Assembly (NCBI GenBank): GCA_902597545.1
Contig: CACJYD010000003.1
Span: 1-64,000, forward strand
Length of the DNA stretch: 64,000 bases
Source: an uncultured Bacteroidota bacterium
Lineage (GTDB): Bacteria; Bacteroidota; Bacteroidia; Flavobacteriales; Flavobacteriaceae
Direction of reading: 5' to 3'
The translations under genes and the position numbers were made by a program. Below are positions 13,277 to 25,202 of the stretch, piece after piece. How positions within the stretch are numbered: the stretch's first letter is position 1; each line of letters starts with the position of its first letter. The notes below the pieces were generated by a model, which was not told where the DNA came from, ran no database searches, and worked only from the letters and a program-made list of their open reading frames with translations.

Positions 13277-16045
13277 ATGAAAAAAATAATTTTCTTTTTA
13301 CTTTTTCCACTATACATTCTATCTCAGTCTAGTTTTAGCGGAACAATTAAAGACAGTTCAGGCTATCCAATAATGGGAGCTAATGTAATTGCTGTCAACA
13401 ATGAAACAAGCGTTCTTGATGGTTTTGGTATTTCAAATGATAATGGTTATTTCACAATTAATCTTAGAAATGATACTGAATTTAATATTAAAATCACATT
13501 CATTGGATTTAAGCCAATAGAATTTAATATTAATTTGAAAGATGATTTAGTAAGAAATTTTGTCTTAGAGGAACAATCTGAGGCACTTGATGCTGTTGAA
13601 ATTGTTTATGAAATGCCTGTTGAAATAAGAGGAGATACTATTGTTTACAGTGCTGATGCTTTTAATACTGGAACAGAAAAAAAATTAGCAGACGTTTTAA
13701 AAAATTTGCCAGGTGTTGAAGTTAATGAGGATGGTAGAATTGAAGTTGAAGGTCAAGAAGTTAGGAAAATTCAGATTGAAGGAAAAGATTTTTTCGATGG
13801 GGATACTAAATTAGCTGCACAGAATTTACCTGCCAAAGCAGTTGGAAAAATTGAAGTTTTACGAAATTTTACTGAAGTCGGACAGCTGAGTGGTGTTCAA
13901 AATAATGAAGATAATTTTGCTATCAATATTAGGCTTAGGGAAGGCAGGGATAAGTTTTGGTTTGGTGAAATTCTAGCTGGTACTGGACCTGACGACATTC
14001 ATCTTGTTGCACCCAAGGTTTTTTATTATGCTCCAAAATTTAACTTTAGTGTTATTGCTAATTCAAACGATATTGGTCAGCCTCCTCTCTCTCGAAGAGA
14101 TTTTTACCGATTCTCAGGTGGATTTGGTAACCTAAATTCAAGAACAGGCACATCAATTAATATTGGTTCTGACTTGGCTGGTTTAGGAAGTTTAAATAAT
14201 AATCGAGCGAAATATATTGATTCAAAACTCACAGCTACAAACTTTTCAGTAAGTAATGATAAAGGTCTTGAAATATCTGGTTTTACAGTCCATTCATCAA
14301 CCACTAATGAGTTAGAGGAACAAATTGATAGAACTTATATTGGTACTAATGCTCTTGAAAACACAAGTGAATTCTCATTACAGGAGAATGAATTAGAGCT
14401 TTATAAGTTTAGTCTTGAATATGAACCTAGTGAAATTTTGCAATTAGAATATAATATTTTGTTGAATAAATCCGATCAATATGAAAATAATGACCTTACA
14501 TCAATGTATGGAAGACAAGATAACAGAACGCAAGAAACACTTGATATTACAAGATCTCAAAAACCGCAATCATTAAATCAAGAGTTTAAACTATACTTTA
14601 CTTTGGCAGATGATCATATTTTTTCGTTTGAGGCTCAGCATTTAGATCAAGAAGAAAATCCTTTTAGTAGGGCAATAAGAGATAGAAACCCTTTCACTAG
14701 ATTAATCCCTTTTAGTTCATCTGTTAACAAATATGATGTGACTCAAGAGAGGTTAGTACAGACTGCAAAACTTGAGGCAAAGCTGGATTATTATTATTTA
14801 TTAAATGATACGTCAAATATAAACCTAAGTTTAGGTGTAACAGATGTTAAACAGGATTTTGATTCAAGTTTTTTTCAAATATTGGATAATGGATCACTTT
14901 TAAATTTTAATGACCCAACATTTAATAACGATGTAAATTTTGACTTTAGTGATGCATATATTGCTTTAAACTATAGATTAAGAACTGGAATTTTTACCAT
15001 TGATCCAGGTTTAACCCTACATTATTACAAAACAAAAAATACTCAGTTAGGGACATCATTCGAGAGAAATATAAGTGATGTAAGACCAAACCTTAGAATA
15101 AATTTACAGTTTAAAAAGTCTGAGAGTTTAAGACTTACTTACAGAAAAAATACACAATTTACAGACATAAATAACCTTGCAGAGGGTTTTGTTTTTAATA
15201 ATTATAATAGCATATTTCAAGGTAACAGGGAACTTGAGGCTGCGGTTGTCAATAATTATAATTTAAATTATAGAAGTATAAATCAATTTACTTTTACTAA
15301 TATTTTTGCCAATGCGAATTATTCTAAAAGAAGTAATTCAATTCAGTCGAGAGCTAATATTAACGGAATTGATGCTATTAGAACCTCAACAAACTCTAAT
15401 TTTCCAAGAGAAACTTATTCTTTGAGCGGAAGGATAGATAAAAGATTTAAAAATTTTAAGTTAAATTTTTCAACTCGATTTAATTACAGTGATTTTACAA
15501 ACGAGGTAAATAATCAAATAAGAAATTCAAAAAGCCTGAATCAAAATTATTCTGCAAGTATTGAAACTAATTTTAGAGATAAACCAAATTTTGAGATAGG
15601 ATATAAGTATAATATTAACGATTATAATAATGGAGGCATTGAAAACCAGTTTATAACTGAGTCTCCATTTGCTAGAATAGATGCATATTTTGGAAAAGGA
15701 TTTGTATTTACTACTGAATACAGTTATAACCATTACAGAAATCAGGATCAGACTTTGAATAAATTTAGATTTATGGATGCTGATTTAACATACAATAAGG
15801 ACGGTTCTAAATGGGAGTTTGGAGTCGGAGTTACAAATTTATTGAATGACCAATCAATAAATAGAGATTCATTTAATCAATTTTTCTCTCAAACTAGAAT
15901 GTATGTAATTCAACCCAGATATATTTTATTTAAACTTAAATATGATTTGACTCTTTTTGGGGGTAAGGATAATAAAGAGAGTGATAAAGCATCTACACCA
16001 AACCCTAGACCGCGTGGAAACAGAGGTGGTGGTAGGCTCAGATAG
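13277..16045 (+). CDS. TonB-receptor-like outer membrane beta-barrel protein with carboxypeptidase-regulatory-like domain
   Basis: A 922-residue outer membrane protein. A signal peptide (IIFFLLFPLYILSQ) is followed by a carboxypeptidase regulatory-like beta sandwich (about 20-95; GTIKDSSGYPIMGANVIAV). A plug-like region (about 115-220) contains GDTIVYSADAF, LADVLKNLPGVEV and RKIQIEGKDFFDGD. The remainder has alternating aromatic strands typical of a large barrel. No TonB box could be assigned. It is probably co-expressed with the GLPGLI gene. The very C-terminus is Arg/Gly/Pro-rich (RPRGNRGGGRLR) where receptors normally end in an aromatic strand, and it echoes the GLPGLI tail. The transported compound is unknown. 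Confidence 0.9.
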   Translation: MKKIIFFLLFPLYILSQSSFSGTIKDSSGYPIMGANVIAVNNETSVLDGFGISNDNGYFTINLRNDTEFNIKITFIGFKPIEFNINLKDDLVRNFVLEEQSEALDAVEIVYEMPVEIRGDTIVYSADAFNTGTEKKLADVLKNLPGVEVNEDGRIEVEGQEVRKIQIEGKDFFDGDTKLAAQNLPAKAVGKIEVLRNFTEVGQLSGVQNNEDNFAINIRLREGRDKFWFGEILAGTGPDDIHLVAPKVFYYAPKFNFSVIANSNDIGQPPLSRRDFYRFSGGFGNLNSRTGTSINIGSDLAGLGSLNNNRAKYIDSKLTATNFSVSNDKGLEISGFTVHSSTTNELEEQIDRTYIGTNALENTSEFSLQENELELYKFSLEYEPSEILQLEYNILLNKSDQYENNDLTSMYGRQDNRTQETLDITRSQKPQSLNQEFKLYFTLADDHIFSFEAQHLDQEENPFSRAIRDRNPFTRLIPFSSSVNKYDVTQERLVQTAKLEAKLDYYYLLNDTSNINLSLGVTDVKQDFDSSFFQILDNGSLLNFNDPTFNNDVNFDFSDAYIALNYRLRTGIFTIDPGLTLHYYKTKNTQLGTSFERNISDVRPNLRINLQFKKSESLRLTYRKNTQFTDINNLAEGFVFNNYNSIFQGNRELEAAVVNNYNLNYRSINQFTFTNIFANANYSKRSNSIQSRANINGIDAIRTSTNSNFPRETYSLSGRIDKRFKNFKLNFSTRFNYSDFTNEVNNQIRNSKSLNQNYSASIETNFRDKPNFEIGYKYNINDYNNGGIENQFITESPFARIDAYFGKGFVFTTEYSYNHYRNQDQTLNKFRFMDADLTYNKDGSKWEFGVGVTNLLNDQSINRDSFNQFFSQTRMYVIQPRYILFKLKYDLTLFGGKDNKESDKASTPNPRPRGNRGGGRLR

Positions 16046-16064
16046 GTATTTTCATAGATTATAT

Positions 16065-16095
16065 TTTGTAGAAATAAAATACTATCTTATTTTTA
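16065..16095 (+). promoter_or_regulatory. Candidate promoter of the aromatic amino acid operon leader
   Basis: TTTG at 16065-16068 and TATTTTTA at 16088-16095 are separated by 19 bases, matching the Bacteroidota -33 TTTG / -7 TAnnTTTG layout with one mismatch in the last base. Transcription would start within a few bases of the leader-peptide ATG at 16101, making the leader ORF nearly leaderless. An alternative weaker element, TATATTTTG at 16060-16068, has one extra base and would start the RNA about 25 bases earlier. Confidence 0.45.
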
Positions 16096-16100
16096 GCGAA

Positions 16101-16175
16101 ATGTTTAATAAAAATTATTACAATCAAATCTATTTTTTCTTTTACTACTTAAGTAATAGCAGGATTTTTTGTTAA
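16101..16175 (+). CDS. Phe/Tyr-rich leader peptide of the pheA operon attenuator
   Basis: A 24-codon ORF with an ATG start and TAA stop, 56 bases upstream of pheA. Ten of the 24 residues are aromatic (Phe at 2, 12, 13, 14, 23; Tyr at 6, 7, 11, 15, 16), including six consecutive aromatic codons, Y-F-F-F-Y-Y at 11-16 (16131-16148). It has no Trp. Shortage of charged tRNA-Phe or tRNA-Tyr would stall the ribosome just before the segment 16160-16169. A ribosome that reaches the stop codon would cover that segment. This is the layout of attenuation leader peptides in proteobacterial phe, trp and his operons. The peptide itself probably has no other function. The assignment is inference, supported by composition, position and the RNA structures downstream. 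Confidence 0.8.
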   Translation: MFNKNYYNQIYFFFYYLSNSRIFC

Positions 16176-16208
16176 TAATTGTTAAAAAGAATTAATATAA
16201 AAGTCCTG
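16160..16208 (+). promoter_or_regulatory. Antiterminator stem of the Phe/Tyr attenuator
   Basis: CAGGATTTTT at 16160-16169, inside the last codons of the leader ORF, can pair with AAAAGTCCTG at 16199-16208 over ten base pairs, one of them G-U. The 3' segment is also the 5' arm of the terminator hairpin, so the two structures exclude each other. The antiterminator segment begins 11 bases after the last Tyr codon. It would therefore be free when a ribosome stalls at codons 11-16 and covered when a ribosome sits at the stop codon (16173-16175). Confidence 0.75.
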
Positions 16209-16228
16209 AATTTCAGGACTTTTTTTTT
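16199..16228 (+). terminator. Intrinsic terminator of the pheA-operon attenuator
   Basis: GTCCTG (16203-16208), a 5-base AATTT loop, CAGGAC (16214-16219), then nine T residues (16220-16228). Flanking A4 and T4 can extend the stem. The T tract ends 3 bases before the pheA ATG. A terminator immediately in front of a biosynthetic operon and behind a Phe/Tyr-rich ORF fits conditional termination better than the end of the outer-membrane gene 150 bases upstream. Confidence 0.9.
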
Positions 16229-16231
16229 GTT

Positions 16232-17053
16232 ATGAAAGTTGCAATACAAGGGATTAAAGGATCATATCATCATCAAGTAGCTATTGAGTTCTTTAGTGAT
16301 GATATAGAAATTGATGAATGTATGTCATTTGATGCTTTAATTGAGTCATTGATTGAGGATAAAAGTGATTTTGGAGTGATGGCAATTGAAAATTCTATAG
16401 CAGGGTCCATCATACCCAACTATTCATTAATCGACAAATATGGTTTATCTATCATTGGCGAACATTATATAAATATTAACCATAATCTGATGGTTTACCC
16501 AGGTGTTAAGTTAAATGATGTAAAATTTATTTCTTCTCACCCCATGGCTTTATTACAATGCAAAGATTTTATAAAAAATTCAAAAAAAACCATTGTGGAG
16601 GATAGAGACACAGCAGATGTTGCCAAAAGAATCATTGAAAATAAAATCATTGATACTGCTGCTATTGCAAGCTTTCAAGCATCTGAACTTTATGGTCTTG
16701 AAATAATAGAAAAAAATATTCAAACTATAACAGATAATGAGACAAGGTTTGTAATCATATCTAAAAAAAGTAATAAGGGAGATAAATTAGATTTAAATAA
16801 AGCTTCCCTTAAATTTATTCTTAGTCATGAAAATGGGAGTTTAGCTCAAATCTTAAATATATTGGCTAACCATAATCAAAATTTAACAAAGATTCAGTCG
16901 ATACCAATTATTGAAACTCCTTGGAAATATTCTTTCTTTGTTGACTTAACATTTAAAGATTATAATAATTATAAAAAAGCAATCGATGAGGTTACAAAAT
17001 CTTCTGAATTAGTTAAAGAATTTGGTGTTTATTTAAATTTTAAATCAAAATGA
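16232..17053 (+). CDS. pheA: Prephenate dehydratase
   Basis: Converts prephenate to phenylpyruvate in phenylalanine synthesis. The 273-residue protein has the dehydratase domain (about 1-180; MKVAIQGIKGSYHHQVA, the ENSIAGSI segment, and the catalytic TRF in DNETRFVII near 170). It ends with an ACT regulatory domain (about 190-270; ENGSLAQIL and KIQSIPI), where phenylalanine usually binds and inhibits. There is no fused chorismate mutase; that activity is encoded at the end of the DAHP synthase gene. It is the first gene of the operon. The start codon lies 3 bases after the attenuator T tract, and no Shine-Dalgarno is seen. Confidence 0.96.
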   Translation: MKVAIQGIKGSYHHQVAIEFFSDDIEIDECMSFDALIESLIEDKSDFGVMAIENSIAGSIIPNYSLIDKYGLSIIGEHYININHNLMVYPGVKLNDVKFISSHPMALLQCKDFIKNSKKTIVEDRDTADVAKRIIENKIIDTAAIASFQASELYGLEIIEKNIQTITDNETRFVIISKKSNKGDKLDLNKASLKFILSHENGSLAQILNILANHNQNLTKIQSIPIIETPWKYSFFVDLTFKDYNNYKKAIDEVTKSSELVKEFGVYLNFKSK

Positions 17054-18192
17054 AGACTGCAAAAAGATTAGAACATATTCAGGAATATTATTTTTCAAGA
17101 AAATTAAAAGAAATTAATTCTTTGATTTCAGCTGGTAAACCAATTATTAATTTAGGTATCGGAAGTCCAGATATAATGCCTCCAAGATCTGTAGTTGAGA
17201 AACTTAAAAAATCTTTAGATTCACCTGTTGCGCATAAGTACCAAGGTTACAAAGGAATTGAGCCTTTTCGGATTGCAATCAAAGATTTTTATCAGAATAA
17301 TTACAAAGTAAAGTTGGATTCTAATAACCAAATTTTACCATTAATCGGTTCCAAAGAAGGAATTATGCACATTTCTTTAGCATTTTTAGATGAGGGAGAC
17401 GAAGTTTTAATTCCAAATCCTGGATATCCAACCTATTCTGCAGTTACTAAAATTGTTGGAGCAAAGCCTATTTATTATAGCTTAAAAGAATCAAAATCTT
17501 GGCTTCCGGATATTAATGAACTGACAAAACTTGATTTATCTAAAGTAAAGATTATGTGGATTAATTATCCAAATATGCCCACTGGTGCTGGATGTAGTTT
17601 GAACTTTTTTCAAAATTTAATTGATTTATGTATACAGAATGGTATTCTTTTAGTAAATGATAACCCATATAGTTTTATATTAAATGAAAACCCAACAAGT
17701 CTTCTTTACAATAATGAAAATTGTGAAAATTGCCTTGAGTTAAACTCACTCAGTAAATCACACAATATGGCAGGTTGGAGACTAGGAATGGTAGTTGGGT
17801 CAAAAAATAATATTCAAAGTATTTTAAAAATAAAATCTAATATGGATTCTGGAATGTTTTTTCCTGTGCAACAAGGTGCTATCGAGGCGTTAAATCAAAA
17901 TAAAAAATGGTATTCAGATTTAAATAGCATTTATAAAAAAAGAAAAGATATAGTGATTGAAATTTGTAATAAACTCAATTTAAAATATTATAAAAATGGT
18001 TTAGGCTTATTTCTATGGGCAAAGATCAATAATTCAGCAACGAAATCTAAAGATTTTACAGATGAATTATTATATAACAAAAATATTTTTATAACACCAG
18101 GATCTATTTTTGGCACTGCTGGAGAAGGTTATGTAAGAATATCACTTTGTCAAGAAGAAAAAAAATTAATTGAAGCTCTAAATAGGTTATAG
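17050..18192 (+). CDS. Pyridoxal-phosphate aminotransferase, probably aromatic
   Basis: A 380-residue class I/II aminotransferase. Visible features are the substrate-binding GIGSPDIMPP near 35, NPGYPTYSAV, NYPNMPTGAG near 178, and the PLP-lysine in SLSKSHNMAGWRLG near 235. It begins with an ATGA overlap with pheA. Its position between prephenate dehydratase and prephenate dehydrogenase suggests it transaminates phenylpyruvate and hydroxyphenylpyruvate to give Phe and Tyr. Aspartate or LL-diaminopimelate-type activity cannot be excluded from sequence alone. Confidence 0.88.
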   Translation: MKTAKRLEHIQEYYFSRKLKEINSLISAGKPIINLGIGSPDIMPPRSVVEKLKKSLDSPVAHKYQGYKGIEPFRIAIKDFYQNNYKVKLDSNNQILPLIGSKEGIMHISLAFLDEGDEVLIPNPGYPTYSAVTKIVGAKPIYYSLKESKSWLPDINELTKLDLSKVKIMWINYPNMPTGAGCSLNFFQNLIDLCIQNGILLVNDNPYSFILNENPTSLLYNNENCENCLELNSLSKSHNMAGWRLGMVVGSKNNIQSILKIKSNMDSGMFFPVQQGAIEALNQNKKWYSDLNSIYKKRKDIVIEICNKLNLKYYKNGLGLFLWAKINNSATKSKDFTDELLYNKNIFITPGSIFGTAGEGYVRISLCQEEKKLIEALNRL

Positions 18193-19056
18193 ATGAAAGT
18201 TGGAATAATTGGACTTGGTTTAATGGGTGGATCTTTTTCCATGGATATAAAAAATATCTATAAAAAATCTAAAATTTTTGGATTAGATTCCTCTGAAAGT
18301 AATTATCAAATGTCTATGAAATTAAAATTGATTGATGGTAAGTTAGATGATAATAATATTTCTGTTATGGATGTTGTATTAATTTCAGTACCTGTTGATG
18401 AAACAGTAAAAATATTACCTGACGTATTAAATAAAATTGGAAATAAAACCCTTGTAATTGATGTTGGTTCCACAAAAAATCAAATTTGTAAGTCAGTTTC
18501 AGATCACAAAAATAGAAAACAGTTTTTAGCAACACATCCTATTGCAGGTACCGAAAATAGTGGTCCAAATGCATCAGTTTCAGGTCTCTATTTTGGGGTA
18601 ACTAATATTCTTTGTGAAATTGAAAAAACGGAAAAATATTTTCTTGAAAAGGCAATGAAAATTTTTAGTGATTTTCGAATGAAAATCATATATATGGATT
18701 CTAAATCTCATGATGAACATATTTCATACGTTTCACATTTATCTCATGTAACATCATTCATGTTGGCTAAGACGGTAATTGAAAAAGAAAAAAATGAAAA
18801 GAATATTTTTGATATGGCTGGTAGTGGTTTTGAATCAACGGTGAGACTTGCAAAAAGTTCACCTAACATGTGGGCACCGATTTTTTTACAAAATAAAACT
18901 AATTTAGTTAAAGCTCTTGATAACTATATTAAAAACATAAACGATTTAAAATCAAAAATTGAAAATGATAATAAAAATTCAATTTTAATCGATTTAAATA
19001 ATATCAATAGGATCAAGAAAATTTTAGGAGGAATTAAAAATAATAATGAAAAATAA
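18193..19056 (+). CDS. tyrA: Prephenate dehydrogenase
   Basis: Oxidatively decarboxylates prephenate to 4-hydroxyphenylpyruvate for tyrosine synthesis. It is 287 residues with an N-terminal Rossmann motif GLGLMGGS (7-14). Family motifs include VDVGSTKNQI near 94, the catalytic-region ATHPIAGTENSGP near 113, and the helical DEHISYVSHLSHV near 175. No C-terminal ACT domain is present. The ATG directly follows the stop codon of the aminotransferase gene. Confidence 0.94.
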   Translation: MKVGIIGLGLMGGSFSMDIKNIYKKSKIFGLDSSESNYQMSMKLKLIDGKLDDNNISVMDVVLISVPVDETVKILPDVLNKIGNKTLVIDVGSTKNQICKSVSDHKNRKQFLATHPIAGTENSGPNASVSGLYFGVTNILCEIEKTEKYFLEKAMKIFSDFRMKIIYMDSKSHDEHISYVSHLSHVTSFMLAKTVIEKEKNEKNIFDMAGSGFESTVRLAKSSPNMWAPIFLQNKTNLVKALDNYIKNINDLKSKIENDNKNSILIDLNNINRIKKILGGIKNNNEK

Positions 19057-20128
19057 TAAGAAACTTAGAACATGGTTAGATGATTTTAATTTGAGTCATC
19101 CTTTAGTTATTGCAGGGCCTTGTAGCGCTGAAACAGAAGAACAAGTATTAATGATAGCTCATGAACTTAAAGATACGGATGTATCAATTTTTAGGGCTGG
19201 GATTTGGAAGCCAAGAACAAGACCTGGAATGTTTGAGGGTGTTGGTGCAATTGGTTTGAAATGGCTAAAAAAAGTTAAAGAAGAAACTGGCCTCATGATA
19301 ACAACAGAAGTTGCAAATGCAAATCATGTTAAATTGGCAATAGAAAATGATGTTGATGTTCTTTGGATTGGAGCTAGATCTACGGTAAGCCCATTTATTG
19401 TTCAAGAAATTGCGGATGCACTTGAGGGAACTGATAAAATAGTTCTTTTAAAAAATCCTGTAAACCCTGATTTATCTTTATGGTACGGAGGAATAGAAAG
19501 ATTATACTCATCAAACATTAAAAAACTTGGAGTTATTCATCGAGGTTTTTCGAGTTATAGCAAATCAAAATATAGAAATAATCCTGAATGGCAAATACCA
19601 ATTGAGTTACAAAATAAATTTCCAGATCTCCCTCTAATTTGCGACCCCTCACATATATGTGGAAGAAGAGATTTAATACATGATGTATCTCAAAAAGCGT
19701 TAGACTTAAATTTTGATGGTTTAATGATAGAATCTCACATTGATCCCGATAATGCTTGGAGTGATTCAGCTCAGCAAATAACACCAAAAAAATTAATTCA
19801 GCTTATGAAGGAATTAAAAATTAGAAAATTGAGTGTTAATCAGGAAGATTATATAAAAAACTTAGAAAAATTAAGAACAAAAATAGATTCGGCTGATAAT
19901 GACATCCTAGATATTCTTGGAAAAAGAATGAAAATTTCTGATGATATTGGAAAATTAAAGAAAAAAGAAAATGTAGCAATTTTACAATCCAAGAGATGGA
20001 ATGAAATTTTAGGAAAAATGATATTAGAGGGTAAAGAAAGAGGTTTAAGTGAAGAATTCGTTTTAAAAATTTTTAAAGCCATTCATCAAGAGTCTATTAA
20101 TCATCAGGAAAAAATAATTAAAGATTAA
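19046..20128 (+). CDS. Bifunctional DAHP synthase / chorismate mutase
   Basis: A 360-residue fusion. Residues 1-255 are a type I-beta (KDO8P-synthase-like) DAHP synthase, with AGPCSAETEEQ near 20, FRAGIWKPRTRPGMF near 50, DVLWIGARS near 107, and the DPSH and LMIESH motifs. DAHP synthase starts the shikimate pathway. Residues 265-345 are an AroQ-type chorismate mutase (LRTKIDSADNDILDILGKRM), which makes prephenate for PheA and TyrA. Joining the first enzyme of the pathway to the branch-point enzyme is common in Bacteroidota and Bacillus-type systems; the mutase domain often carries the prephenate feedback site. It overlaps tyrA by 11 bases. Confidence 0.95.
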   Translation: MKNNKKLRTWLDDFNLSHPLVIAGPCSAETEEQVLMIAHELKDTDVSIFRAGIWKPRTRPGMFEGVGAIGLKWLKKVKEETGLMITTEVANANHVKLAIENDVDVLWIGARSTVSPFIVQEIADALEGTDKIVLLKNPVNPDLSLWYGGIERLYSSNIKKLGVIHRGFSSYSKSKYRNNPEWQIPIELQNKFPDLPLICDPSHICGRRDLIHDVSQKALDLNFDGLMIESHIDPDNAWSDSAQQITPKKLIQLMKELKIRKLSVNQEDYIKNLEKLRTKIDSADNDILDILGKRMKISDDIGKLKKKENVAILQSKRWNEILGKMILEGKERGLSEEFVLKIFKAIHQESINHQEKIIKD

Positions 20129-21036
20129 TGATTGGAACTATCTATAAATCCACTGGAAGTTGGTATAAAGTTAAACTTGAAAATGGAAAATTTATAGACT
20201 GCAGACTTTTAGGAAAATTCAGAGAAAAAAATATAAAATCTACAAATCCTGTCTGTGTAGGAGATGTTGTCAAGTTAAATAATAATAAAAACACACCTCA
20301 AATAGAATTTATTTTAGAAAGAAAAAATTACTTGATTAGAAAATCAGTAAAACTTTCTAAGCAATTTCACATAATTGCATCTAATATTGATATATGTTTC
20401 TTAATAATTACTGTTAAAAACCCAGAGACATCTACAATGTTTATAGATAGATTCTTAGCATCAACTTTCTCATATAATATTGATACAGTTTTACTTTTCA
20501 ATAAGGTTGACGATATAAGTGATAAAGAAGAGAATACTTTAAAAACTTTTTTAGCTACATATAAATCTGCTGGTTATGATTGTCTAAAAATCTCTGGAAA
20601 AAAAGGAATTAATATAGATAAATTGAAACTTATCATGAAAGGTAAGTCATGTGTTTTTTCAGGCCACAGTGGTGTTGGAAAATCTACATTAATCAACAGA
20701 CTTGATTCAAAATTTAATATTAAAACATTACCAATTTCAAAATCCAATCTATCGGGTCAGCATACTACAACATTTTCAGAAATGCATGATCTCGAATTTG
20801 GATCAAGAATAATTGATACACCCGGCATAAAAGGATTTGGTTTATTTGATGTATCTAACTTTGAACTTAAAGATTTTTTCAAAGAGTTCATTAGTGTTGA
20901 ACAATGTAAGTTTAATAATTGTTTGCATCACAATGAACCAGGGTGTAATGTAAAGAACTTGGTTGAAAATGGTTCAATATCAAGATCTAGATATGATAAT
21001 TACATACAACTTTTAGAAGAAATACAAAATAGTTAA
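20128..21036 (+). CDS. rsgA: Small ribosomal subunit biogenesis GTPase RsgA
   Basis: A circularly permuted GTPase that helps late maturation of the 30S subunit. Of 302 residues, the N-terminal OB fold is followed by G4 (LLFNKVDD), then G1 (GHSGVGKSTLIN near 178), the switch-I LSGQHTTTF, and G3 (DTPGIKGF). A C-terminal zinc motif (Cys in EQCKFNNCLHHNEPGC) is intact. Start and stop share bases in TAATG, so translation is coupled to the DAHP synthase gene. A housekeeping ribosome factor within an aromatic amino acid operon is notable. Confidence 0.96.
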   Translation: MIGTIYKSTGSWYKVKLENGKFIDCRLLGKFREKNIKSTNPVCVGDVVKLNNNKNTPQIEFILERKNYLIRKSVKLSKQFHIIASNIDICFLIITVKNPETSTMFIDRFLASTFSYNIDTVLLFNKVDDISDKEENTLKTFLATYKSAGYDCLKISGKKGINIDKLKLIMKGKSCVFSGHSGVGKSTLINRLDSKFNIKTLPISKSNLSGQHTTTFSEMHDLEFGSRIIDTPGIKGFGLFDVSNFELKDFFKEFISVEQCKFNNCLHHNEPGCNVKNLVENGSISRSRYDNYIQLLEEIQNS

Positions 21037-21046
21037 ATATCATTTA

Positions 21047-21496
21047 ATGAAAGCAGTTATACAAAGAGTAACATATTCAAACTTAAGTATTGAAAATAAA
21101 ACTTACAGTCAGATTAAAAGAGGGCTTGTAGTTTTACTTGGAATAACTCATTATGATGATGATAATGATATTCAGTGGTTAGCAAAAAAAATTGTAAATC
21201 TTAGAATATTTAATGATGATAAAAAAATAATGAATAAGTCTTTGATTGATGTTTCAGGGGAATTGATGATAGTTAGTCAATTTACATTACATGCCCAAAC
21301 AAAAAAAGGCAACAGACCTTCTTATATCGATGCTGCAAATGGTGATATCGCAGAAAAAATTTATAAGTCTTTCATTTTAGAAATTGAAAATAAATATAAT
21401 CTAAAGCCAAAAACTGGTAAATTTGGTGCGGATATGAAAGTAGAGTTGGAGAATGATGGGCCGGTAACCATCATTATTGATACAAAAAATAAATAA
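21047..21496 (+). CDS. dtd: D-aminoacyl-tRNA deacylase
   Basis: Removes D-amino acids (and glycine on tRNA-Ala) from mischarged tRNAs. The 149-residue protein has the family motifs MKAVIQRVTYSNL at the N-terminus, the catalytic-site SQFTLHAQTKKGNRPSY near 79, and the Gly-cis-Pro motif NDGPVTIII near the C-terminus. Ten bases separate it from rsgA, so it is probably in the same transcript. Confidence 0.96.
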   Translation: MKAVIQRVTYSNLSIENKTYSQIKRGLVVLLGITHYDDDNDIQWLAKKIVNLRIFNDDKKIMNKSLIDVSGELMIVSQFTLHAQTKKGNRPSYIDAANGDIAEKIYKSFILEIENKYNLKPKTGKFGADMKVELENDGPVTIIIDTKNK

Positions 21497-21500
21497 TTAT

Positions 21501-21827
21501 ATGGATTTAAATACTTTACAGAAAAAAGTTGATAATTGGATAAAAGAATATGGCGTTAGATATTTCGACGAATTAACAAATATGGCTCAATTAACCGAAG
21601 AGGTAGGGGAGGTTGCCAGAATAATTTCAAGGACTTATGGTGAGCAGTCAATTAAAGAAAATGAAGAACTAAACGATTTGGGTGAAGAGTTAGCAGATGT
21701 ATTATTTGTTCTTTTATGTTTAGCTAACCAAACTGGAATAGATCTAGAAAAGTCTTTTGAAAAAAAATTAAAGAAAAAATCCCAAAGAGATAAAACTAGA
21801 CATTTATCTAACAAAAAATTAAAATGA
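21501..21827 (+). CDS. MazG-like nucleotide pyrophosphohydrolase
   Basis: With the ATG at 21501 the protein has 108 residues; a longer frame to 21477 would overlap dtd and lacks a standard start codon. It is a compact all-alpha MazG-type domain with the metal-binding pattern EEVGEVARII (about 29-38) and GEELADVLFVLL (about 62-73), then a Lys-rich tail. Such enzymes hydrolyse NTPs or dNTPs to monophosphates, cleaning the nucleotide pool. The actual substrate is unknown. It overlaps aroA by 4 bases (ATGA). Confidence 0.88.
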   Translation: MDLNTLQKKVDNWIKEYGVRYFDELTNMAQLTEEVGEVARIISRTYGEQSIKENEELNDLGEELADVLFVLLCLANQTGIDLEKSFEKKLKKKSQRDKTRHLSNKKLK

Positions 21828-23059
21828 AAAAGGTCAGCATTGATGGTTCAAATCTAAAGTCATACTATGAATTGGACATCTCTGGATCAAAGAGTGAATC
21901 AAATAGAATTTTGATTCTTAAATCAATATTCAACAATATAAAAATTAATAATTTATCATCATCAGATGATACATCTGTCTTAAATCACAGCTTACAAAAT
22001 TTGAATGAAAATATAGATGTTGGTCATGCAGGTACATCTATGAGGTTTTTAACTGCATACCTAGCAACTTTGGAAAATAAAAAATTTATTATTTCAGGCT
22101 CAGAGAGAATGCATCAACGTCCAATAGGGCTGTTGGTTGATGCCCTAAATTCTCTTGGTTTTAAAGTAAATTATTTGAATAAAAGAGGATTTCCACCACT
22201 AGAAATTATTGGTTCAAAAAATTTGCATCATGAAGTTGTTTTAAAATCTCATATTAGTAGTCAGTTTGTAAGTGCCTTAACATTAATTGCGCCCTCTTTA
22301 GATAATGGTTTAAGAATTATTCTACAGGATGATATAACATCAAAGCCATACATTGATATGACCATTTCAATATTAAATAAAATTGGTGTTGATGCAACAT
22401 TTGAAAAAAATTTAATTAATGTCAAACCATTAAAAAAAATTAATGATATAATATATGACGTTGAATCAGATTGGTCATCTGTATCGTACTTTTTTTCAAT
22501 GGTGGCATTGGCTAAAAATTTAAAGTTGTCAATCTCAAATTTTAGAAAGGAAAGTTTTCAAGGTGATGTAAATGTTTGTAAATACTATGAAACTTATGGT
22601 ATCAAAACTGTATTTGAAGGAAATAGACTAATTATTATTAAGGATGAAACTAAAAATCTTCCAAAAAAAATTGAGATTGATTTAAATGATAATCCAGATT
22701 TAGCACAGACAATTATTGTAACATCTTTTGGTCTCAATATCCCTACTAAATTAACAGGCTTATCTACATTAAAAGTTAAGGAAACTAACAGACTAGAAGC
22801 TCTTTACAATGAATTAACTAAACTGGGTGCTAAATGTAAAATAACTAATGATTCAATTGAAATTTTTAAATTAAAAAAACTAAATATTAAGCATTGTACT
22901 ATTGAGACATACAATGATCATAGAATGGCTCTTGCATTTGCACCATTGTCCATTTTAAAATCATTGGAGATTATTGAACCTAGCGTAGTTTCAAAGTCAT
23001 TTCCAGAATTTTGGAAAAAACTAAAAGATGTGGGGTTTTCAGTTGATTTTTGTAATTAA
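21824..23059 (+). CDS. aroA: 3-phosphoshikimate 1-carboxyvinyltransferase (EPSP synthase)
   Basis: The sixth step of the shikimate pathway, joining shikimate-3-phosphate and PEP. The 411-residue protein has the N-terminal substrate Lys/Ser in SGSKSESNRI, the PEP site GTSMRFLTAYLA near 68, SSQFVSALTL near 145, KETNRLEAL near 318 and DHRMALAFA near 364. This is near the usual 410-430 residues. It is the last gene of the run that begins at pheA, giving the operon the entry, middle and terminal aromatic steps. A promoter for queA follows after its stop. Confidence 0.94.
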   Translation: MKKVSIDGSNLKSYYELDISGSKSESNRILILKSIFNNIKINNLSSSDDTSVLNHSLQNLNENIDVGHAGTSMRFLTAYLATLENKKFIISGSERMHQRPIGLLVDALNSLGFKVNYLNKRGFPPLEIIGSKNLHHEVVLKSHISSQFVSALTLIAPSLDNGLRIILQDDITSKPYIDMTISILNKIGVDATFEKNLINVKPLKKINDIIYDVESDWSSVSYFFSMVALAKNLKLSISNFRKESFQGDVNVCKYYETYGIKTVFEGNRLIIIKDETKNLPKKIEIDLNDNPDLAQTIIVTSFGLNIPTKLTGLSTLKVKETNRLEALYNELTKLGAKCKITNDSIEIFKLKKLNIKHCTIETYNDHRMALAFAPLSILKSLEIIEPSVVSKSFPEFWKKLKDVGFSVDFCN

Positions 23060-23071
23060 TTGGATTTTTAC

Positions 23072-23103
23072 TTGACAACCCATATTTCACAAATGTATAT
23101 TTG
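23072..23103 (+). promoter_or_regulatory. Candidate queA promoter
   Basis: TTG at 23072-23074 and TATATTTG at 23096-23103, separated by 21 bases, match the Bacteroidota -33/-7 pattern. The -7 element ends 13 bases before the queA ATG at 23117. Confidence 0.55.
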
Positions 23104-23116
23104 CATTTTTTAAATT

Positions 23117-24166
23117 ATGAAATTATCAAATTTTACTTACGATTTACCTAAAGAATTACTTGCTGAATATCCCTCTGATCAGAGAGATGAGTCTAGATTA
23201 ATGGTATTACACAGAGACTCAAATAAAATTGAACACAAATTATTTAAAGATGTCATCGATTATTTTAATGATGGTGATTCATTTATTCTAAATAATACTA
23301 AAGTCTTTCCAGCCAGATTGATGGGTAACAAAGAAAAAACTGGTGCCAAAATTGAGGTTTTCTTACTAAGAGAATTAAATAGAGATCAAAGACTTTGGGA
23401 TGTATTAGTTGACCCTGCAAGAAAAATAAGAATAGGTAATAAGTTATATTTTGGTGAAGATGATAGTCTAGTTGCTGAGGTTATTGATAATACAACATCA
23501 AGAGGTAGAACACTAAGATTTTTATATGATGGTTCTTATGACGAATTCAGAGAAAAATTAATAGAGCTTGGTCAAACTCCGTTGCCAAAATACATAAAAA
23601 GATCTGAGGAAGATTTTGATAAAGAAAGATATCAAACTATTTATGCAAAAAATGAAGGAGCTGTAGCAGCACCAACTGCTGGACTACACTTTTCCAAACA
23701 TTTACTAAAAAAACTACAAATAAAGGGTGTCAACTTAGGAGAAATCACGTTACATGTTGGTTTAGGTACTTTTAGTCCAGTTGAAGTGGAAGATCTATCC
23801 AAACACAAAATGGATTCTGAAGAATTAATAATTGATGGCGAAGTAGTAAATTTAGTTAACAATACTAAAAAGAATAAGAATAAAGTGTGTGCAGTAGGCA
23901 CTACAGTTATGAGAGGTTTAGAAACTTCTGTGTCGTCAATGGGAACTCTAAATCCGTACAGAGGATGGACTCACAAGTTTATTTTCCCACCTTATAAATT
24001 CAGTATTGCAGATTCATTAATAACTAATTTCCATATGCCAAAATCTACATTGTTGATGATGGTATCAGCTTTTTGTGGCCATGATTTCATGATGGAAGCC
24101 TATGAGGTTGCTATTAAGGAGAAATATAGATTTTACTCTTATGGAGATGCAATGCTAATTCTATAA
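23117..24166 (+). CDS. queA: S-adenosylmethionine:tRNA ribosyltransferase-isomerase
   Basis: Transfers the ribosyl part of SAM to 7-aminomethyl-7-deazaguanine in tRNA, giving epoxyqueuosine. The 349-residue length is standard. Motifs include DFxYDLP-like [19 protein letters not shown] at the start, [31 protein letters not shown] near 180, [11 protein letters not shown] near 212 and FIFPPYKF near 290. It begins a new transcription unit after aroA and is followed by rlmN after 1 base. Confidence 0.97.
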
Positions 24167-24167
24167 A

Positions 24168-25202
24168 ATGTCCTTAAAAGATATAAGGCTTATTACGTCT
24201 GAAAATTTAGAGCAATTGCTCAAAAAGTATAAATTTCCAACATATAGATCAAAACAAATTCAGAACTGGGCTCGAAAAATTAATGTTCAATCATTTAATC
24301 AAATGTCAAATTTGCCAAGTGATTTAATACATTTTCTTATTGAAAATTTTAAATTAAATAAATCAAAAGTAAAGACAAGTAAAAAAAGTTCTGACGGAAC
24401 AATAAAGTTTGCAATTCAGCTTTTTGATAATCTTATTGTTGAGGCTGTATTGATACCATCAAATAAGCGTATCACTGCATGTATCTCAAGTCAGGTTGGA
24501 TGTAGTTTAGATTGTAATTTTTGCGCAACATCAAAGATTAAGAAAATGAGAAACTTGGAGTCATATGAAATTTTTGATCAAATTATGCTCTTGAACAAAG
24601 AATCAATCAATCATTTTTCAGCTCCTATAACTAATATCGTGTTTATGGGTATGGGGGAACCTTTATTGAATTATAAAAATGTAATTGAATCAATAGATCA
24701 GATTACTAGTGATTTTGGAATTGGAATTTCATATAAAAAAATAACATTATCAACGTCTGGAATTTCTAAAATGATAAGAAAGATGGCTGACGACAATGTT
24801 AAATTTAATCTAGCTATATCACTACACACAGCATTAGAAAAAACAAGAAATAATGTGATGCCATTCTCAAAATCATTCCCAATTAAAGAGCTAGTTGATA
24901 GCTTAGAATATTGGTATAAAAAAATTAAAAGAAAAATTACTTTCGAATATTTAATATGGAAAGAAATTAATGATGATTTTGAACATATCAATGCTCTAGT
25001 AAGTATATGTAAAAGAATTCCATCAAAAGTAAATATTATTGAATATAATGATACAGATAACTCTATATTTCGGAATGCAGATAATAAATGGATAAATAAC
25101 TATGTAACTACCTTAAAAGAAAATAGAATTCCTGTCTCTGTAAGAAGATCAAGAGGTAAAGATATTGATGCTGCATGCGGACAATTGGCAAATAAATATT
25201 AA
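24168..25202 (+). CDS. rlmN: Dual-specificity 23S rRNA (A2503) / tRNA (A37) C2-methyltransferase
   Basis: A radical-SAM methyltransferase. The 344-residue protein has the 4Fe-4S motif CSLDCNFC near 110 (CxxxCxxC), GMGEPLLNY near 162, and a second conserved Cys in DAACGQLA near the C-terminus, which forms the methyl-transfer intermediate. It is translated 1 base after queA, so two RNA modification genes are coupled. Confidence 0.96.
   Translation: MSLKDIRLITSENLEQLLKKYKFPTYRSKQIQNWARKINVQSFNQMSNLPSDLIHFLIENFKLNKSKVKTSKKSSDGTIKFAIQLFDNLIVEAVLIPSNKRITACISSQVGCSLDCNFCATSKIKKMRNLESYEIFDQIMLLNKESINHFSAPITNIVFMGMGEPLLNYKNVIESIDQITSDFGIGISYKKITLSTSGISKMIRKMADDNVKFNLAISLHTALEKTRNNVMPFSKSFPIKELVDSLEYWYKKIKRKITFEYLIWKEINDDFEHINALVSICKRIPSKVNIIEYNDTDNSIFRNADNKWINNYVTTLKENRIPVSVRRSRGKDIDAACGQLANKY

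Follow-up and report, generated by a model that had tools for sequence, protein, structure and literature searches.

This locus raises the question of how the short interval upstream of pheA, between the stop codon of a 922-aa gene in the same direction (at 16045) and the pheA start codon, might govern the genes that follow. An earlier note on the 64,000-nt stretch of DNA analysed here (referred to as the window) had proposed a ribosome-mediated transcription attenuator at 16101–16228. Our own analysis leads to the same reading, since with a probability of roughly 0.92 we take this interval to be such an attenuator of the classical his/phe/trp type. The window derives from an assembly that is 85% complete and comprises 1.43 Mb in 33 contigs, and its relevant features are collected in Table 1.

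Table 1. Control elements and genes at the pheA locus of the window, with the basis for each assignment.
Feature	Position	Strand	Basis
TTTTG, –33-like promoter element, 19 nt ahead of the –7 element	16064..16068	+	sequence; similar stretches in relatives
TATTTTTA, –7-like promoter element differing from TAnnTTTG at one position	16088..16095	+	inferred from sequence
Leader-peptide ORF MFNKNYYNQIYFFFYYLSNSRIFC	16101..16175	+	direct sequence reading; comparable leaders in relatives
Control codons Tyr-Phe-Phe-Phe-Tyr-Tyr (YFFFYY)	16131..16148	+	sequence; codon columns in genus
Antiterminator 5′ strand, core 16160–16169, overlaps leader ORF end	16160..16176	+	duplex energies, folding, covariation
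Antiterminator 3′ strand; 16199–16208 doubles as terminator 5′ arm	16191..16208	+	folding, covariation
Intrinsic terminator with 11-bp stem, 3-nt loop and T run reaching 16228	16199..16228	+	sequence, terminator scan, covariation
pheA, prephenate dehydratase	16232..17053	+	PRK11898 188 bits, below curated cut-off 219
Class I/II aminotransferase	17050..18192	+	best match LL-diaminopimelate aminotransferase, below cut-offs
tyrA, prephenate dehydrogenase	18193..19056	+	PRK08507 352.7 bits, above cut-off
DAHP synthase / chorismate mutase fusion	19046..20128	+	PRK12595 188.6 bits, below cut-off 279; both domains matched
rsgA, ribosome biogenesis GTPase, one-base overlap with preceding gene	20128..21036	+	TIGR00157 above cut-off
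dtd, D-aminoacyl-tRNA deacylase	21047..21496	+	TIGR00256 above cut-off
Small ORF, nucleoside triphosphate pyrophosphohydrolase-like (weak)	21501..21827	+	22.7 bits against cut-off 208
aroA, EPSP synthase, last of tight row	21824..23059	+	283.8 bits against cut-off 287.25

Downstream of the interval, the genes from pheA to the DAHP synthase/chorismate mutase fusion overlap or abut without a gap, while those from rsgA to aroA are separated by at most 10 nt, and we infer that the whole row is read as one transcript. A terminator scan of 15900–24400 revealed no convincing terminator inside the row: it returned three terminator-like matches where 2.2 were expected, two of them being the two strands of the attenuator itself, and a weak hairpin inside tyrA (18857–18875) was rejected given these numbers. 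Because the scores of pheA, the aminotransferase, the fusion and aroA fall below the NCBIfam curated cut-offs, their names rest on best match and context. Specifically, the class I/II aminotransferase is probably the aromatic one, judging from its context; an aminotransferase lies 3′ of pheA in 108 of the 109 loci with room to see it. For the small ORF upstream of aroA the ATG start was chosen, the ORF list giving a TTG start at 21477. Both rsgA and dtd thus lie within the aromatic row, between DAHP synthase and aroA (20128–21496).

The interval itself opens with a short ORF rich in end-product codons, as carried by ribosome-mediated transcription attenuators (ATG at 16101–16103, TAA at 16173–16175). 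Direct reading confirmed the earlier description of 24 codons, 10 of which encode Phe or Tyr, with six of these in an uninterrupted row at 16131–16148. Between this leader ORF and the first structural gene lies an intrinsic terminator, of which the stem occupies 16199–16223 and is followed by T's up to 16228, leaving 3 nt before pheA (16232). The earlier note had this end and the 3-base distance right, but had let the hairpin start at 16203, whereas the stem begins at 16199. When the 64-kb window was scanned in 250-nt pieces (both strands, step 50) for an ATG ORF of 12–45 codons with at least five Phe, Tyr or Trp codons in eight (the leader rule) that is followed by a terminator, only 3 of 2550 pieces responded, all three covering the 16101–16228 site. 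Moreover, the fold of 16101–16231 was equalled or bettered by only 1 of 200 dinucleotide shuffles (z –3.5).

The third component is a pairing that competes with the terminator. The ten-base pairing of 16160–16169 (CAGGATTTTT) with 16199–16208 that had been noticed earlier is indeed present (one G–U pair, ΔG –10.0), but it was understated, as in RNA ending at 16208 a 17-bp antiterminator helix with a single bulge is predicted (16160–16176 with 16191–16208). According to the attenuator reading, transcription would start at or beside the AUG of the leader ORF. With ample charged Phe- and Tyr-tRNA, the ribosome would reach the stop codon at 16173 and cover 16160–16169, upon which the terminator at 16199–16228 would form and RNA polymerase would be stopped before pheA. 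When Phe or Tyr runs short, the ribosome would instead stall on 16131–16148 and leave 16160–16176 free to pair with 16191–16208. The antiterminator formed in this way would pre-empt the terminator, allowing pheA, the aminotransferase, tyrA and the DAHP synthase/chorismate mutase to be made, perhaps through to aroA.

This geometry, in which stalling frees the antiterminator segment and a ribosome at the stop codon covers it, had been sketched in the earlier note and was borne out by constrained folds in which the ribosome was assumed to mask the RNA from P-site –15 to +15. The last control codon of the run lies 11 bases from the antiterminator. With a ribosome placed at the stop codon, the antiterminator probability was 0.00 at all RNA lengths tried and the terminator formed, whereas with stalling at any of the positions 16131, 16137 and 16146 it reached 0.99 for RNA free to 16208–16218. 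Once the whole terminator was free, however, the terminator won at equilibrium in every state, stalled ribosome included, and the antitermination decision must therefore be a kinetic one in this model. Mutual exclusion of both structures thus appears in the folds, with the footprint as assumed, on the growing RNA and not at final equilibrium. The ribosome-free growing RNA also preferred the antiterminator (up to 16216), from which the model predicts read-through of untranslated leaders; the textbook trp case differs in this respect. A possible protective 1:2 helix (16126–16131 with 16162–16167) is present in the ribosome-free fold.

Conservation was examined in pheA upstream regions obtained by PheA searches of 60 relatives (43 matches), of a named genome collection (587 confirmed matches, the best 80 of which were used) and of 197 genomes of the class with a completeness of at least 85 (56 matches). 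This yielded 174 upstream regions, 165 of which were distinct by their last 200 nt, the 9 duplicates being dropped; three partial matches (G012, G080 and G181) were left aside. In the near set of 109 distinct regions, mostly from Flavobacteriaceae, a leader and a terminator were found together at most 250 nt from pheA in 107 cases, while the combination arose in none of 2180 shuffles of the same regions. Leader-type ORFs as such turned up on the reverse strand of 2 of the 109 regions and in 3.6% of shuffles. The two exceptional near-set loci (L024 and L097) carry a leader and terminator of the same type several hundred nt upstream, behind a repeat array. Within about 500 nt upstream of pheA, these two loci hold the repeat word GTTCGAAGAACGAAATAAAAT in three and four copies, with CCCGCC...GGCGGG hairpins. 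Among other families of the order and class, the leader was detected in 39 of 56 distinct regions (leader and terminator under the strict rule in 26 of 56), leaving 17 of the 56 without a leader by the search rule. At least one leader was seen in 19 of the 28 families other than f1 (64 regions), and family f27 lacked it in all six of its members.

These distributions bear on a plainer explanation of the locus, namely that the terminator merely terminates transcription coming from the upstream 922-aa gene and that the aromatic ORF is a chance product of AT-rich DNA. This gene does point in the same direction, and T runs supply cheap Phe codons in such DNA, yet a homologue was found in only 19 of 110 loci (7 duplicate pairs included, and a few loci extending only a short way upstream), whereas leader and terminator persist. 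Since the neighbour changes and the element does not, this candidate was rejected. The leader and terminator combination is moreover missing from the shuffles and from the other window pieces, and a plain terminator would have no need of the antiterminator covariation described below. We consequently give this explanation next to no credence and retain the attenuator reading.

The codon content of the leaders was compared within the genus by aligning 14 of them gap-free from the stop codon (leaving out three shorter ORFs and one with N's). All 70 codons in the five central columns proved to be Phe or Tyr codons, with only T or C as third base; Phe and Tyr replace each other in three of these columns, and the adjoining columns vary freely. 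The 776 core codons of 97 near-set leaders comprised 229 TTT, 157 TTC, 131 TAT, 73 TAC, 22 TGG, 5 TTA and 0 TTG, a tally that is partly so by construction because the 8-codon core was picked for aromaticity, which makes the stop-aligned genus columns the fairer test. Each of the 97 distinct near-set leaders passing the leader and terminator filter contains both Phe and Tyr, in keeping with the earlier proposal that one leader counts both amino acids. However, 42 of the 97 also contain Trp, so that across the lineage the leader would be an aromatic sensor rather than strictly a Phe/Tyr one.

Pairs of terminator and antiterminator serve riboswitches too, and the structured nature of the region would equally suit a riboswitch or a protein-binding antiterminator that senses the amino acid and to which the ORF is incidental. 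The retention of the codon columns as Phe/Tyr speaks against such a sensor, as does the lack of any Rfam family at gathering score here or, apart from tRNAs, in seven related loci. By eye, no conserved core was seen outside the aromatic run, the antiterminator and the terminator. The sub-threshold Rfam matches, to 15 families or places at E values of up to 10, looked chance-like, the best of them (E 0.013) being an opposite-strand match to an unrelated sRNA family, and a riboswitch was therefore rejected as a candidate. We regard sensing without the ribosome as very unlikely at this locus, and continue with the attenuator.

Covariation was analysed in an alignment of 53 diverse near-set segments that was built without structure information. 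These segments begin where the aromatic core ends and run to the terminator, and they are a thinned subset of 105 N-free segments no longer than 120 nt. In the terminator, all 415 cells were paired (100%) and 48 were changed on both sides, a figure that is partly by construction because the rows had been selected for leader and terminator. The antiterminator, which had played no part in this selection, was paired in 85.3% of 423 cells and showed 51 double changes, whereas 500 shuffles averaged 21.0 and 0 of them reached 51. Sliding the antiterminator by one column lowered pairing to 40–52%. Pairing was weaker at three end pairs, with 13, 11 and 25 cells unpaired. Two further counts were unexceptional: 6 antiterminator pairs carried a double change and 16 further pair types occurred, values that 183 and 59 of the 500 shuffles, respectively, reached. 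Examples of matched changes between loci are CAGGA/TCCTG, CGAGA/TCTCG, CGGGA/TCCCG and GAGGC/GCCTC.

Across 131 loci, among which a few have doubtful ORF choices (e.g., L217, L241 and L261), the mean antiterminator duplex energy was –10.75 kcal/mol for a locus's own strands, –7.11 kcal/mol for strands swapped between loci, and –4.86 kcal/mol for shuffled strands. A locus's own antiterminator outperformed 95% of its shuffles in 103 of these loci and failed to do so in 28. The earlier note had asked whether relatives lack both the aromatic codons and the alternative pairing; on the contrary, leader, terminator and antiterminator are kept with compensatory changes. The leader codons and the three RNA strands look selected across many Bacteroidia families.

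The hairpin could also be imagined to act on translation, by masking the start of pheA instead of halting RNA polymerase, and the mere 8 nt between the end of the stem and the pheA ATG in the window would allow for this. Across loci, however, the hairpin lies anywhere between about 6 and about 100 nt from the start, and in L024 and L097 several hundred nt away; translational hiding was rejected because this spacing is not conserved. The listed terminators moreover have a T run after the stem (the T run being part of the search rule). Control of this kind therefore seems to us highly improbable, and we hold to transcription attenuation as the proposed control mode for the aromatic operon in many Bacteroidota.

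The enterobacterial phe operon leader (pheL/pheA) is built from a Phe-rich leader peptide, an antiterminator and a terminator directly before pheA. The window resembles it in having these same three parts immediately before pheA, but differs in that Tyr is counted together with Phe (and Trp as well in relatives) and in that there is probably no 5′ leader in the window's genus. The corresponding Rfam model (RF01859, Phe_leader) gave a weak full-length match at 16117–16228 (22.5 bits, E 0.13). This falls far short of the 55 bits required for gathering, and families unrelated to it scored equally well in the same search.

In the related fish pathogen Flavobacterium psychrophilum, amino-acid operons have been reported to show strong clues for attenuation by leader peptides, along with 5′ elements upstream of pheA and hisG that occur in other Flavobacteriaceae genera too and have no Rfam hits (PMC9723704, 2021). 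The pheA element of that report is very probably the attenuator described here, which is carried by many Flavobacterium loci, F. psychrophilum itself lying outside our sample. The novelty is therefore modest, as the existence of a pheA element in Flavobacteriaceae had already been flagged, although the text consulted gives no codon content, pairing, covariation or spread beyond the family. New in our analysis are the detailed anatomy, the covariation, the spread to 19 of the 28 other families sampled, the Trp codons and the probable leaderless start, the more interesting parts being the depth across Bacteroidia and this probable start. Short ORFs reminiscent of leader peptides have also been mentioned for B. 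thetaiotaomicron (PMC7366714). In the open-licence literature searched, we found neither the Phe/Tyr codons nor the antiterminator nor the class-wide spread described. A comparative survey of attenuation by Lopatovskaya et al. (2010) reportedly exists and may hold related predictions.

The start of the leader transcript was predicted from its promoter elements. The promoter consensus is TTTG / TANNTTTG; in F. johnsoniae its –33 motif is weak, and transcription starts 4 or 5 nt after the –7 element (PMC6847099). Because the –7-like element of the window ends 5 nt before the leader ATG, transcription is predicted to start at 16100 or 16101. In nine other distinct leaders of the genus, a perfect –7 element (one with N at a free position) ends 4–7 nt before the ATG. 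The remaining five distinct genus leaders listed have imperfect –7 elements, and in other genera the element is mostly located farther upstream. Held against the 4–5 nt rule of F. johnsoniae, the spacing of 4–7 nt suggests that the pheA leader mRNA is probably leaderless in this genus.

Such an arrangement would be uncommon: 87% of F. johnsoniae transcripts with a probable promoter have leaders of more than 10 nt (PMC6847099), leaderless mRNAs amount to 5.5% in F. psychrophilum (PMC9723704), and in Bacteroides thetaiotaomicron roughly 3.7% of 5′ UTRs are shorter than 10 nt (PMC7366714). Mycobacteria have leaderless polycysteine attenuators (Canestrari et al. 2020, cited in PMC9031893) that are similar in that the codons of a leaderless short ORF, as predicted here, count an amino acid. 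As described there, however, they belong to another phylum, count another amino acid and regulate the translation of downstream genes.

Upstream of trpE in the window's own genome (L129, G000:C11), a GTG-start leader with WWW, MKLKNINLWWWFSSNEL, is followed by a terminator before trpE, and 4 nt separate its GTG from the end of a perfect –7 element, TATATTTG. This suggests a leaderless Trp attenuator; in 12 of the 21 trp leaders examined, 4 or 5 nt separate the –7 element from the start. For the trp antiterminators, including that of the own-genome trpE, our script found only weak pairing. Whether the aromatic attenuator is both ancestral to the class Bacteroidia and leaderless in the small-genome genus of the window (at the pheA AUG and the trpE GUG) is a combined proposal for which we consider the odds to be even.

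Because ribosome-mediated attenuation works only if a ribosome follows RNA polymerase closely, a leader that looks selected bears on the coupling of transcription and translation. The pheA leaders in turn suggest that both processes are coupled in Bacteroidota, at least at leaders, and the attenuator offers a simple reporter for testing coupling in F. johnsoniae. If the leader mRNA is leaderless, the ribosome would load at the extreme 5′ end of the emerging transcript and become coupled to RNA polymerase immediately, and would do so in a phylum without Shine-Dalgarno initiation in which leaderless mRNAs are a small minority.

Other amino-acid genes were inspected in up to 40 relatives each. 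For homoserine dehydrogenase the open frame reached the locus edge in 11 of 11 loci, placing the true upstream region outside view. At ilvD, a terminator was present in 14 of the 18 loci looked at (one of them distant), and no consistent Ile/Leu/Val leader was found among these 18. A small terminator, ACTCCATTTACATGGAGT followed by T's, sits directly before ilvD in the own genome (L163) and in genus relatives, where no clear Ile/Leu/Val leader precedes ilvD, and the ilvD locus of another family (L157) carries MRVNNVILSIIILLCQL. HisG had no match in the own genome. In relatives, short ORFs with at least three His in eight codons precede hisG in 13 of 14 loci (L113–L120 and L122–L126; L121 was read in the wrong frame by the script and is hence unassessed), and a terminator follows in 10 of these 13.
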